From: Caryophanales bacterium
GTDB lineage: Bacteria > Bacillota > Bacilli > Paenibacillales > CANHCR01
Assembly (NCBI GenBank): GCA_947459205.1
Contig: CANHCR010000016.1
Location: 1-51,141 of the forward strand
Direction of reading: 5' to 3'
DNA length: 51,141 nt
The position numbers and the translations under genes are program-made. This document shows, one piece after another, positions 29,452-34,250 of this stretch. The stretch's first letter is position 1. Each line of letters opens with the position of its first letter. Below the pieces are notes generated by a model. The model was not told the origin of the DNA and made no database searches. It saw only the letters and a list, made by a program, of their open reading frames with translations.

Positions 29452-31662
29452 TTACTGTAGCTGTCGATTTCGATGCAGACGATTGAGAATGACTGCCATT
29501 TGTGCTCTGGCAGTAGCGTTGCTCGGTGCAAAAGTTTGACCACTCATCCCGCTCATGATGCCGCTCCGATATATGGCGGCAATCGCTTCATAGGACCAAC
29601 GTGTTGGCACAATATCGGTGAACGGCGGTGGCGGTTCGGCAGGCGTCGATGGTGTCGCAAGTGCAAGCGCACGCACAAGCAATGTCGCCAGTTGTTCACG
29701 GCTGACCGCTGCATTTGGCGAAAATGTTTTGGCTGTCCCCAGTGTCGCAGACGAAGTGCCCGCCACGATTCCTCGCTTATGTGCCGCTTCTATCAAGCCG
29801 AATGCCCAATGCGATTGCGGAACATCGGAAAATGAAGGAGTGCCCTTGGACTCAGAGGGTTGAAAGTCAAGAAATCGTGCCAATATGACGGTCGCCTCTG
29901 CCCTCGTCAATGCCTGTTGCGGTGCAAACTGTTCCGGTGCGAGTCCTGTCATCCAGCCGCGTTCCGCCGCGAGAAAAATCTCCTGTTCAGCCCAGTGTTC
30001 AAGCGCGACATCACGGAACACCCGGCCATTTAACCAATCGGCAAAATAGTCCCATGTGCCAGCCGCTTCTTGATATAGACTCCAACTACCGGCACCCTTG
30101 ACCCCATAGCGCGCCAACATACGCAATTTCTGCTTCAGTGAGCGCTCATTTTCATACCACAGTATATATTGCCCAGAATCGCACCATTTACCCGCAATGT
30201 ACATCCCGCCGCCCTGCGGAATATCAAACTTCATGTATGGTGATTGCTTCGTTTCGTCGAACGCGAATTGTCCATCGTAGCGCTCGAGCAAAGACGACAC
30301 GCGTGAATTGGAGACGCCTATGCCCTTAATCGTTGAACCATTGTTCGCAGTCACTTCTTGCGCGACGCTCCACAGCCGACCATAAAACGGCACGCCCATC
30401 ACCAATTTGTCGCGCGCAACACCTTCGTTCAGTGCGAACTGCAAAGATCGCTCAAAAAATCCGAGCGATGAGACAGGGCCAGGATCACTCCCCTCCCACG
30501 ATTCGTCATACGCCATGATCATCAAATAATCAGCAACTTCTGATAGTGCCGGATAGTCATAAAAACCATGCCAACCATTGCGCCAGCCGTTCGGATTCGC
30601 TGCGACGGCGACTGACAGTTCTTTTTCGGGCGGCAACTTGTTCCGTAACGTGCGTACAAATTGAGTGAATGCATCGCGATAAGCGGCGCCGACGCCTTCG
30701 ATATCGATATTGACGCCATCTAATTGATGTGCGGATACGGCAGCCACCACCTCATCGGTCACGCGCTCCGTTTCGTTTAATGCATCAATGCCGATTTGTC
30801 GGTTCCAGTGATTGCTTAGAAAAGGCACAACTTTGATGCCACGCCGCTTCATCTCGGCGATGAACGACGCATCGAGTTTCCATGTCACGCTCAACTTACC
30901 ACCGCTTAGCAAATCCAAGTAATTCGGTGACACCATGGTGAGCGTGTTGTTCGTTTGATTGATTTGATTCACATAACTCGCTGGATTCCCGAAATATAGA
31001 TACGACAGGTTCGTGCGACGCTCACTTGTTGTCGCGGCCGCGAGCGTTGATTGATCGCTGATTAATGGAAACCTGACTTCAAACCTTTGTTCCGTCAGAT
31101 GCGTACTTAATGTGACAGTTGCACCCGCATAATCGGCATCTACCGTGCGCGCTGCCAACTTGGTAAAGGCAAGCACATTCAAGTCCCCTTTTAAACCCAT
31201 CTGTTGAAGCGTGTTGTTCGCTGATTGCATCGCCATTTGCAAATCAACTTGAGGTGTAAGGCACATCACCAGGAGCAACGAGTAACTGCTCAGCATGGTT
31301 AACAGTTGACGTTCCGATTGCGGCTTTGCAATGATTGTTAACGAACGAACTGTGTTTTTATTGGCGTTCATTTGTGCTTCTAGTCGTAAAAAGTCATGCG
31401 AAAAAATAGCAGGATCTTTAGTCTTTTTCAACGACAATCCCATTGCAAGTTCATCGTTCAATGAATTCCAGAGCGCAGCAATCTCATCTGTTCGTAATTG
31501 TTGAAATGCATTGGCATACGTTCTCAAACGCTCATGTTGAACCATTCGTTGCTCGCTCGGATGGATTTGCGGTGTAACTGGCGATTGTTGTTTCGGTGTA
31601 CAAGAAATCAAGATGAAAAGCGAACTGAGAACAAGCATCAACTTCCGCAAACGATGTTTCAA
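29452..31662 (-). CDS. GH18 family glycosidase lipoprotein with three SLH domains (736 aa)
   Basis: Lipoprotein signal with lipobox LISC (Cys21). Residues 45-210 are an unassigned alpha/beta region. A GH18 domain (about 215-565) has the catalytic DGVNIDIEG (Glu322) and the strands YLMIMAYDESWEGSDPGPVS and VMGVPFYGRLWS, like YaaH/SleL-type spore and wall glucosaminidases. Three SLH domains (about 570-736) follow, a module binding pyruvylated wall polymer. Being both a predicted lipoprotein and an SLH protein is unusual. TTG start with GAGAGGGGG upstream. Followed directly by the LysM-M23 peptidase gene, giving glycan- and peptide-cleaving enzymes together. Confidence 0.88.
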   Translation of the reverse strand: MKHRLRKLMLVLSSLFILISCTPKQQSPVTPQIHPSEQRMVQHERLRTYANAFQQLRTDEIAALWNSLNDELAMGLSLKKTKDPAIFSHDFLRLEAQMNANKNTVRSLTIIAKPQSERQLLTMLSSYSLLLVMCLTPQVDLQMAMQSANNTLQQMGLKGDLNVLAFTKLAARTVDADYAGATVTLSTHLTEQRFEVRFPLISDQSTLAAATTSERRTNLSYLYFGNPASYVNQINQTNNTLTMVSPNYLDLLSGGKLSVTWKLDASFIAEMKRRGIKVVPFLSNHWNRQIGIDALNETERVTDEVVAAVSAHQLDGVNIDIEGVGAAYRDAFTQFVRTLRNKLPPEKELSVAVAANPNGWRNGWHGFYDYPALSEVADYLMIMAYDESWEGSDPGPVSSLGFFERSLQFALNEGVARDKLVMGVPFYGRLWSVAQEVTANNGSTIKGIGVSNSRVSSLLERYDGQFAFDETKQSPYMKFDIPQGGGMYIAGKWCDSGQYILWYENERSLKQKLRMLARYGVKGAGSWSLYQEAAGTWDYFADWLNGRVFRDVALEHWAEQEIFLAAERGWMTGLAPEQFAPQQALTRAEATVILARFLDFQPSESKGTPSFSDVPQSHWAFGLIEAAHKRGIVAGTSSATLGTAKTFSPNAAVSREQLATLLVRALALATPSTPAEPPPPFTDIVPTRWSYEAIAAIYRSGIMSGMSGQTFAPSNATARAQMAVILNRLHRNRQLQ

Positions 31663-31726
31663 ATCGCGCCCCCTCTCTGCAACGTTTTCTCATATTAAGG
31701 TGCCACTTGACCCGAAAAACTATGCA

Positions 31727-31762
31727 AGAAAAAACGCCGCCCACAGTAGAGTGGACAGCGTC
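31727..31762 (-). terminator. intrinsic terminator after the XRE regulator gene
   Basis: On the minus strand a 12-bp stem (GACGCTGTCCAC with GTGGGCGGCGTT, including T-G wobbles), a 6-nt loop and TTTTTTC. It begins at the TAG of the gene at 31762-32208. Confidence 0.8.
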
Positions 31763-32208
31763 TATTTTCGTGCAATTCGTTCAGCTAGCGAAAGGAGCAA
31801 TTGCAAATCGTTATCGGAGCAGGTGGATGCACTTTTTATGATGGTGACCATATCATGCCATTTCTGATGGTCGAGCGCAGTGAGGTATGCTTCGTTAAAT
31901 TGGCAAAAAAAATGCCATTTGTGATCAAAAAAAATAGTCTCTGTCTTCGCCTCGCCAAATTGATCTGGGCGCTTGCTCGCTCCATTGCCGGTTAATAACC
32001 AGTCTGCAGAAATTGCCATCGCCTCGGATATACGTAGCAATGTTTCACCGCTCGGCATCGTTAGTCCGTTTTCTAAATTGCTGACCGTCGCCGATGTTGA
32101 ACCAATCAACTTTGCGAACTCATCCATTGAGATCCGGTGCAACTTGCGAAGTTCACGAATACGCGTGCCAATTTGCAGCTTACGCTCGTCTTTTTGCTTG
32201 CCGTTCAT
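31762..32208 (-). CDS. XRE-family HTH transcriptional regulator (148 aa)
   Basis: N-terminal Cro/CI-type helix-turn-helix at about residues 12-72 (RIRELRKLHRISMDEFAKLI then SATVSNLENGLTMPSGETLL). The C-terminal half is a helical domain without recognisable family, containing FFDHKWHFFCQFNEAYLTAL. A GGTGA site precedes the ATG. It is divergent from a second small HTH gene overlapping sda, so it may control that promoter and its own. It resembles phage-type or SinR-like repressors in layout, but no other phage genes are nearby. Confidence 0.85.
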   Translation of the reverse strand: MNGKQKDERKLQIGTRIRELRKLHRISMDEFAKLIGSTSATVSNLENGLTMPSGETLLRISEAMAISADWLLTGNGASKRPDQFGEAKTETIFFDHKWHFFCQFNEAYLTALDHQKWHDMVTIIKSASTCSDNDLQLLLSLAERIARK

Positions 32209-32256
32209 TAGTCACCAACTTTCACAGAACGTTCATTAAATATATTAAGCGTATCA

Positions 32257-32285
32257 TTGACTTTACTAATTTAATTAAGTATATT
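32257..32285 (+). promoter_or_regulatory. candidate sigma-A promoter for the HTH-sda pair
   Basis: TTGACT, 17-nt spacer, TATATT in the 166-nt divergent region. Both hexamers match the consensus at five of six positions. A tandem 9-bp repeat (TTTGAGCAT twice, 32307-32324) lies just downstream of the expected start site and could be an operator. Confidence 0.6.
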
Positions 32286-32374
32286 TTGGACAGAGAACGA
32301 ATGATATTTGAGCATTTTGAGCATATTATAACATGATTCTTACACTTCGCATACACTCGAAAGGAGTAGCGATT

Positions 32375-32590
32375 TTGTCCGATAAACAAATTACGCATCT
32401 TGGTTGGATCATCATCGAACGCTTGGCTGAGCTCAAATTGACACGCAAACAGTTTTGCCAAATGTACAATATTCCTGAAAGCCGTTTGTCGAACTTGATG
32501 ACAGGGCTACGTCCGGCCAAAAGATACCGTGGCCAAGTCATGCGATTGCTAAATATCAAGGAGTCCGATTTGCATGGACCGTCTAACTGA
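32375..32590 (+). CDS. small HTH (Cro/CI-like) protein (71 aa)
   Basis: Short single-domain protein resembling an XRE helix-turn-helix: IIIERLAELKLTRKQFCQMY then IPESRLSNLMTG. TTG at 32375 (L-S-D-K-Q) is chosen because AAAGGAG lies 8 nt upstream; earlier in-frame codons have no site. Its last 17 bases overlap the sda start, so the two are probably co-translated. Probably DNA-binding; target unknown, perhaps the divergent promoter region next door. Confidence 0.75.
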   Translation: MSDKQITHLGWIIIERLAELKLTRKQFCQMYNIPESRLSNLMTGLRPAKRYRGQVMRLLNIKESDLHGPSN

Positions 32591-32744
32591 CAAACTATTA
32601 CTTGAAACATATGTGAACGCCCTGAAATTTGAGTGCGATCCTGACTTTATCGAGCTATTGCTGCTTGAACTGCACAGACGAAAGATTGCCATCCCCGTAT
32701 CACAAACTACAACCAGACCGACGCCGTATCAAAAGAAGGAATAA
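32574..32744 (+). CDS. sda: Sda-like sporulation histidine kinase inhibitor (56 aa)
   Basis: Reading the frame from ATG 32574 gives a 56-residue peptide with MDRLTDKLLLETYVNALKFE, then CDPDFIELLLLELHRR. This matches the B. subtilis Sda pattern (M-R-K-L-S-D-E-L-L-I-E-S-Y, then DFIELI and ELxRR), a helical hairpin that binds and inhibits KinA and KinB and so delays sporulation when replication is disturbed. It has a 10-residue-longer C-terminus with Thr/Pro. AAGGAG lies 10 nt upstream. It overlaps the HTH gene end by 17 nt and, convergently, the mqnD 3' end by 38 nt. The match to Sda is by eye, but the core is distinctive. Confidence 0.85.
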   Translation: MDRLTDKLLLETYVNALKFECDPDFIELLLLELHRRKIAIPVSQTTTRPTPYQKKE

Positions 32745-33558
32745 GTTGATTCGACATCGCGCGTGTAAATAAACTCTCAATCGATCGACGTCCCCGCTCA
32801 CCGATATCATAAGAAAATTCATTGACATACAGTTGAATGTGTGCGTGGACCACCTCTTCGCTCAGTTCTTGAGCATGAGAACGAATGTAGTCCAGTGATT
32901 GCTTTGGGTTCGATTGTGCATATCGAAGCGAGTCGCGAATGTGGCGTGCCAGTTGCTTGCCGTCACCTAACGTTCGCCGTGCCACGATTGCGCCGAGCGG
33001 GATGAGATGACCGCTGCTTCTCTCCCACCAATCGCCAAGATCAACCAATAACTGAAGTTGATAATGCTGATAGGTAAACCTCGCTTCATGAATGACCAAC
33101 CCGCCGTCATACACACCGTCGACAATTCCCTGCATGATGTGATGAAATGGAACCACAACAAATTCGTGGTCTACTTGCGAATAGTGTTCTGCGATGAACA
33201 ATCGTAATAGCAAAAAGGCAGTGGAGCGCTCGGCAGGAATCGCAATTTTTCTACGGATACTAAAAAAATCACCGGGATGATTTTGCGAGCGCGACAAAAG
33301 CAGCGGGCCGCAGCCTTCACCAAGTGCACCGCCGCATGGTAACAATCCGTAAGTTTCGATGACGAACGGAAGTGCCGCATATGATATTTTTAATAAATCA
33401 AACGGCGGATATTTGGCAAACGCCCATTCATTCGTTTGATCAATATCAGCATGTGTCACTTTAATCGAAGGAGCACCAGCAAGCAATCCATGTGACCAAG
33501 CATGAAAAATATACGTGTCATTCGGGCATGGTGAATAAGCCGCGGTTAGCAATGTCAT
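32707..33558 (-). CDS. mqnD: 1,4-dihydroxy-6-naphthoate synthase MqnD (283 aa)
   Basis: Converts cyclic dehypoxanthine futalosine to 1,4-dihydroxy-6-naphthoate. The N-terminus AAYSPCPNDTYIFHAW is diagnostic, followed by KISYAALPFVIETYGLLPCG and HEARFTYQHYQLQLLVDLG. The ATG at 33558 has AAAGGAG 5 nt upstream and overlaps the mqnB stop by four bases (ATGA); the longer frame has no ribosome binding site. Its 3' end overlaps convergent sda. Confidence 0.93.
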   Translation of the reverse strand: MTLLTAAYSPCPNDTYIFHAWSHGLLAGAPSIKVTHADIDQTNEWAFAKYPPFDLLKISYAALPFVIETYGLLPCGGALGEGCGPLLLSRSQNHPGDFFSIRRKIAIPAERSTAFLLLRLFIAEHYSQVDHEFVVVPFHHIMQGIVDGVYDGGLVIHEARFTYQHYQLQLLVDLGDWWERSSGHLIPLGAIVARRTLGDGKQLARHIRDSLRYAQSNPKQSLDYIRSHAQELSEEVVHAHIQLYVNEFSYDIGERGRRSIESLFTRAMSNQLIPSFDTASVWL

Positions 33559-34250
33559 GCTCTCTCCTTTGCGTTCAGTTTGCCGAAATCGATTTTTGAG
33601 ATTCGAGAAAACCCCTCGCTCAAGCCGGCAAACGCTTCCTGCAACTTCCATTCATCACGACGTCGCGGACCTACTCGGTTGGAAATCGAACGAACTTCAA
33701 GAAATGGGATGCCTAACTCTTGAGCAACCATAGCAACACCGAAACCTTCCATTGCTTCTACCGTTGCGTTTGGCCAGCGTTTCTTTAGTTTAGATGCTGT
33801 CGTACTTGTTCCGGTTGCTGTTGAAACAGTCAGAACATCGCCTAACCGACAATTTAGTGCAGATTGAAATGATTGCAATATGACAGCATCTGTACAGTAC
33901 ATATTTTGACCGAAACCAAGCGCATCCAACGTCAGAAACCCATGCCGCGATTCTGCACCGGCATCCGCCCAAATCGAGCGCTTTGCCAACCAAATTTCCC
34001 CTGAATCTATGGAATTATCCTCATCGCATGTAAATTTACCGCCAATACCTGCTGACAGAATCAAATCAATCTTTTGCCCGCAACCGATACGCTCTGTGAG
34101 CGCTCTCGTCGATTGCACGGCAGCTGTCACGGGACCGACGCCACATAGCAGCACCTCGAATGTAGCTATCGATGCAAAAGATGCATGACTGAGTCCACTA
34201 AGCACCGCTTGACGTTCCGCCTCTACCGCCGTAAACACGATAATCTGCAT
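33555..34250 (-). CDS. mqnB: futalosine hydrolase MqnB (231 aa)
   Basis: Nucleosidase releasing hypoxanthine from futalosine, of the MTA/SAH nucleosidase-like phosphorylase fold. Motifs: IIVFTAVEAERQAVLSGL, ILSAGIGGKF and AMEGFGVAMVAQELGIPFLE with the base-recognition Glu region, and VRSISNRVGPR. Context with mqnD supports futalosine over MTA as substrate. First gene of a two-gene unit; mqnC and mqnE must lie elsewhere. Confidence 0.92.
   Translation of the reverse strand: MQIIVFTAVEAERQAVLSGLSHASFASIATFEVLLCGVGPVTAAVQSTRALTERIGCGQKIDLILSAGIGGKFTCDEDNSIDSGEIWLAKRSIWADAGAESRHGFLTLDALGFGQNMYCTDAVILQSFQSALNCRLGDVLTVSTATGTSTTASKLKKRWPNATVEAMEGFGVAMVAQELGIPFLEVRSISNRVGPRRRDEWKLQEAFAGLSEGFSRISKIDFGKLNAKERA

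Follow-up and report, generated by a model that had tools for sequence, protein, structure and literature searches.

In Bacillus subtilis, Sda is a DnaA-activated, LexA-repressed replication and DNA-damage checkpoint protein that stops spore initiation while the chromosome replicates or is damaged, and its C-terminal tail has a role in its stability. The protein is rapidly proteolysed (PMC5295017) and contacts KinA through L21 and F25 (PMC7430163). With the terms used, a literature search combining Sda with Paenibacillus found no paper. Among the 250 sampled genomes of the order (the Paenibacillus group, to judge by its named loci), we found Sda in 228, and the best-matching copies mostly adjoin a zinc-ribbon gene and a ferredoxin-NADP-reductase-like gene (named by resemblance, not by profile). 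In the 300 bp upstream of these canonical sda genes there are three to eight DnaA boxes, whose positions hardly vary, e.g. about -175, -163, -121, -110, and -84. Near-fixed arrays of this kind were observed across families of the order (L002–L030 and others), a pattern that suggests a conserved DnaA nucleoprotein architecture. That the boxes keep their places in front of sda throughout the order suggests that the link by which Sda holds back sporulation during replication or damage is old and conserved. Sufficient upstream sequence was available for 55 distinct Sda proteins, of which 28 are preceded by at least three DnaA boxes and 27 by at most two; the box-poor group consists mostly of extra copies in scattered contexts, and the surroundings of box-less copies in the order are highly varied. 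At two loci of family code f10 (L068 in G009 and L070 in G017), sda has zero to one DnaA box and immediately follows a small gene other than the HTH gene described below, encoding 120 and 77 aa, respectively, in what looks like a polycistronic arrangement; these small genes are apparently homologous, and the L070 one has no Pfam match.

The window, by which we mean the whole 51,141-nt stretch of DNA analysed, carries an sda gene in a different setting, between a small helix-turn-helix (HTH) gene and mqnD:

31762-32208, minus strand: XRE/HTH_3 regulator of 148 aa, transcribed divergently to the small HTH gene (Pfam HTH_3, 55.3 bits)
32209-32374, no strand assigned: predicted divergent promoter/operator region (promoter scan; stretch shared with genome G173)
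32375-32590, plus strand: small phage-repressor-like HTH protein, 71 aa (phrog_1468 match; probable TTG start)
32558-32563, plus strand: AAGGAG within the HTH gene, a Shine-Dalgarno-like site 10 nt ahead of the sda ATG (read from the sequence)
32574-32744, plus strand: sda, encoding a 56-aa member of the sporulation histidine-kinase inhibitor family, ATG at 32574 and stop at 32744 (Pfam, phmmer)
32707-33558, minus strand: mqnD (menaquinone biosynthesis), convergent with sda (Pfam VitK2_biosynth, 220.5 bits)

The sda frame translates as MDRLTDKLLLETYVNALKFECDPDFIELLLLELHRRKIAIPVSQTTTRPTPYQKKE and scores 54.1 bits (E 1.3e-14) with the Pfam Sda family (PF08970), for which 22.6 bits is the cut-off, residues 1-44 aligning to profile positions 1-44 of 45. 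Among Sda proteins of solved structure, phmmer matched the peptide by sequence to 3d36_C (E 3e-5), 1pv0, and 3fyr. We conclude that it is a member of the Sda family, as proposed for this 56-codon frame in the first-pass annotation, whose overlaps of 17 nt with the HTH gene (the HTH stop ends at 32590) and 38 nt, tail to tail, with mqnD (which ends at 32707) are both exact by coordinates. Its remark that the gene is easily missed is right only in part: NCBIfam gave no match for the frame at 32574-32744, but in public annotation genes of this kind routinely bear the name 'sporulation histidine kinase inhibitor Sda', so this one is hidden only in a relative sense. The overlap with mqnD is confined to the sda tail, the Sda domain ending at about 32705, and mqnD is probably a bystander. 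We note that mqnD adjoins a futalosine hydrolase gene, so that 32707-34250 on the minus strand holds genes of the futalosine menaquinone pathway. In a genome-wide search, the window sda was the sole Sda match in the 2.52-Mb genome, which also encodes Spo0A.

We next considered the control sites of this gene. Allowing one mismatch, no DnaA box was found within 300 bp upstream of the window sda or anywhere in 30974-32763; this covers the intergenic region 32209-32374, for which a scan had been proposed together with the suggestion that control differs from that in B. subtilis, and the outcome fits that suggestion. A LexA-type site (GAACN4GTTC, at most one mismatch) was likewise not found in 31093-33363. 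Because the organism's own oriC (the dnaA-dnaN region) contains a dense cluster with many exact TTATCCACA boxes, the DnaA-box consensus is valid in this organism. Moreover, its own orthologue of the ferredoxin-reductase gene (78% identical) lies on another contig with neither sda nor the zinc-ribbon gene beside it. Together, the box, LexA, and ferredoxin-reductase results place the window sda away from its usual location and its usual control sites. Because the promoter features that define the DnaA-controlled Sda checkpoint were looked for and not found, we conclude that the window sda is not a member of that checkpoint. Sda itself is ordinary in this order; its location is unusual.

The protein differs from B. 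subtilis Sda at one of the two KinA-contact positions, with Cys instead of Leu at position 21, while F25 is kept. A charged residue among the last two positions was found in 11 of the 27 box-poor Sda proteins, the window's included, versus only 1 of the 28 box-bearing ones (Fisher p 0.0009, with relatives that are not independent of each other). Because Sda is rapidly proteolysed in B. subtilis, such a changed tail might alter stability. The replacement of L21, the charged and lengthened C-terminus, and a long tree branch are also what would be expected of a decaying Sda that no longer inhibits a kinase, in which case the checkpoint would in effect have been lost in this organism. We regard this as improbable, given that the frame is intact, the match covers the full domain well above the cut-off, F25 and most conserved positions are kept, the Shine-Dalgarno sequence is good, and this is the only copy in a genome with Spo0A. 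A further alternative is that the hairpin acts on the co-encoded regulators, instead of or besides a sporulation kinase. SinI acts on SinR in this manner, the window Sda is likewise a small helical-hairpin protein encoded together with HTH regulators, and Sda domains are reused elsewhere, being fused to a PAS-HisKA kinase at locus L079; nevertheless, because the peptide matches the kinase-inhibitor profile across the whole domain, we consider this alternative very improbable. Most likely, the window Sda still works as a sporulation-kinase inhibitor, under an XRE/HTH switch. As for the fusion itself, L079 (G027:C3, 409-1593, minus strand) encodes an N-terminal Sda domain (Pfam Sda, 30.1 bits) on a PAS-HisKA-HATPase kinase with matches to the kinase domains, and may represent an inhibitor domain built into a sporulation kinase; an ORF at L225 (G173:C49) resembles it in its Sda profile match, length, and C-terminal sequence.

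Because the family alignment begins there, the start of the HTH gene is most likely TTG 32375, which is preceded by AAAGGAG at 32360-32366. The protein matches PHROG 1468, a family of phage transcriptional repressors, with 52.6 bits (residues 4-64 on positions 3-63 of 67), and its Pfam HTH matches are below cut-off only. Its family alignment has 19 invariant columns over 16 sequences, and a homologue is encoded by 85 out of 250 genomes of the order in one search and by 149 out of 399 in a second. At 126 HTH loci, many of them redundant, an XRE partner was divergent at 68, convergent at 20, and undetected at 38, and a more sensitive search of a larger set gave 114 divergent XRE/HTH pairs. Because the XRE gene on the opposite strand is the consistent partner, we conclude that the conserved unit is the divergent XRE/HTH pair, usually without sda. 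An sda gene is missing from the vicinity of most HTH homologues, and in genus code g19, to which Saccharibacillus belongs, at least 13 genomes keep the HTH gene without any Sda match; HTH-sda as a generally conserved pair was, therefore, rejected. In named genomes, an exact-peptide search with the window HTH alone found nothing, and a search with the family alignment found 74 loci, Paenibacillus oryzae among them. In viral contigs, the window-type HTH found no relative and the broader family found five loci. In Paenibacillus, a UreF-like gene (named by eye) or a gene for a PAS-like protein is often found beside the small HTH gene (L034, L037, L042, and relatives), and two tandem XRE genes are present at some of these loci.

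Searching the HTH loci with the Sda profile revealed two further loci with sda directly behind the HTH gene. In P. oryzae, XRE (minus strand), HTH (plus strand), and sda (plus strand) are arranged as in the window, with a 4-nt ATGA overlap between the latter two; a second sda in this genome has seven DnaA boxes while the HTH-linked copy has none. G250, which belongs to another order of Bacilli, has the three genes in the same arrangement, HTH and sda being ~100 nt apart, and this sda is the only one there. The pairing pointed out in the first-pass annotation thus recurs, although the partner conserved with the HTH gene is the divergent XRE gene. In a concatenated XRE and HTH tree (a quick tree, with the window on a long branch), the window, G250, and G173 form one clade with SH-aLRT support of 98, and P. 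oryzae lies elsewhere. G173 has a box-less sda on the same strand, 5.2 kb downstream, and the genes in between include RadC- and ArdA-like ones (named by eye), a spacing that is compatible, if weakly, with an ancestral HTH-sda tandem broken by insertion. At L256 (G173:C133, 3033-8579), a box-less sda adjoins ArdA- and RadC-like genes, as if in a mobile or anti-restriction island. A phage or plasmid origin of the window sda was rejected based on no phage match and four weak plasmid matches; in the two annotated plasmid regions viewed, no HTH gene directly overlapped sda.

Could the arrangement be a positional accident, in which sda was relocated in this lineage to its place after the HTH gene, its expression there coming from read-through or a cryptic promoter in hth and having no regulatory meaning? 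That the XRE/HTH pair is without sda in most genomes, and that box-less sda genes turn up in so many contexts, would agree with this. However, the same short-spaced tandem is present in P. oryzae and G250, two of the three genomes have no sda besides the HTH-linked one, and the overlap is tight in two of the three modules. By our own rough estimate (HTH copies × Sda copies × ~210 allowed positions, divided by twice the genome length), well below 0.1 chance tandems would be expected over ~160 HTH-bearing genomes versus the three observed; because of this low expectation, the three tandems are unlikely to be accidental. Overall, we consider an accident rather unlikely. With respect to a common origin of the HTH-linked copies, the Sda tree gave AU p values of 0.36 and 0.52 on 48 columns.

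Between the XRE and HTH genes, we identified a -35-like TTGACT (32257-32262) and a -10-like TATATT (32280-32285) separated by a 17-nt spacer, in which lies the imperfect palindrome ACTAATTTAATTAAGT (32265-32280); these are consensus matches, and the scan gives no more sites than shuffled sequence. A 36-nt promoter stretch is identical at 25 of 36 positions to the same place in G173, and 0 of 60 shuffles were as good; comparisons of other pairs of loci were not above chance. An operator palindrome common to all three modules was rejected as not significant beyond the window and G173. The predicted RNA fold over the sda start and Shine-Dalgarno sequence is ordinary.

Based on these observations, our working hypothesis, to which we give slightly better than even credence, is that the window encodes a functional Sda that has been freed from DnaA control and is the distal product of an HTH-sda transcript from an autoregulated phage-type XRE/HTH switch. 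Specifically, HTH and sda would be co-transcribed from the divergent promoter, where XRE, and perhaps the small HTH protein too, would bind operators and autoregulate as a phage immunity switch does. Once some signal relieves this repression, the cell would produce HTH and Sda at the same time, and the Sda would then inhibit sporulation kinases, putatively of the KinA/KinB type, and so hold off Spo0A. The 17-nt overlap may couple translation of the two genes, but sda, having its own AAGGAG, would not need this. This reading draws on the identity of the protein, its status as the sole copy in a genome with Spo0A, the lack of DnaA and LexA sites despite a boxed oriC and boxed canonical sda genes, and the organism's own ferredoxin-reductase gene with no adjoining sda. 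It also draws on the modules in P. oryzae and G250, the well-supported clade, and, in G173, the box-less sda and the shared promoter stretch. Against it count the absence of a nearby sda at most HTH homologues, the separate Shine-Dalgarno sequence, the Cys at position 21 (although F25 is kept), an Sda tree compatible with related as well as unrelated HTH-linked copies, and a promoter and palindrome that are consensus matches, the palindrome not being significantly common beyond the window and G173. Because the DnaA switch has been lost and the arrangement recurs in two distant relatives, the Sda brake is probably set by a signal other than DnaA-linked replication.

More tentatively, and on balance doubtfully, a phage-derived XRE/HTH switch may have captured sda repeatedly, or once and anciently, such that immunity-type and possibly stress- or prophage-linked bistable control replaces DnaA timing, fully so in the window genome and G250. 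That a genome can have as its sole sda a copy that lacks DnaA and LexA sites and follows a phage-type regulator gene implies that rewiring of the checkpoint is possible. Such a genome is a natural test of whether sporulation, to be orderly, requires Sda timed by replication; in P. oryzae, which has one sda of each type, the two could be compared directly within one cell.

Compared with known systems, the window Sda shares with B. subtilis Sda the PF08970 family, a similar length, F25 and the hairpin core residues, and a genome with Spo0A; it differs in its Cys at position 21, its longer charged tail, the lack of DnaA and LexA sites and of the canonical neighbours, and its position behind an HTH gene. 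The protein is homologous to that of the canonical Paenibacillales loci, which have three to eight fixed boxes and mostly uncharged C-termini, neither of which applies to the window. The P. oryzae 1DrF-4 module (L112, NZ_LYPA01000052.1) is identical in gene order and orientation, and its sda also overlaps the HTH stop and lacks DnaA boxes, but its regulators belong to another subclade (XRE ~20% identical), its overlap is 4 nt rather than 17 nt, and its genome has the second, DnaA-boxed sda. The G250 module (L205/L263) has the same gene order, regulators of the window's own clade, and a sole sda, but has the gap in place of an overlap and two weak DnaA-box-like sites with one mismatch. Finally, the window HTH is 44% identical to gp04 of the Mu-like phage BalMu-1 (PHROG 1468), an early-region repressor that is accompanied by a separate divergent repressor gene, as the window HTH is by XRE; in BalMu-1, other genes lie between gp04 and the divergent repressor, and there is no link to sda.
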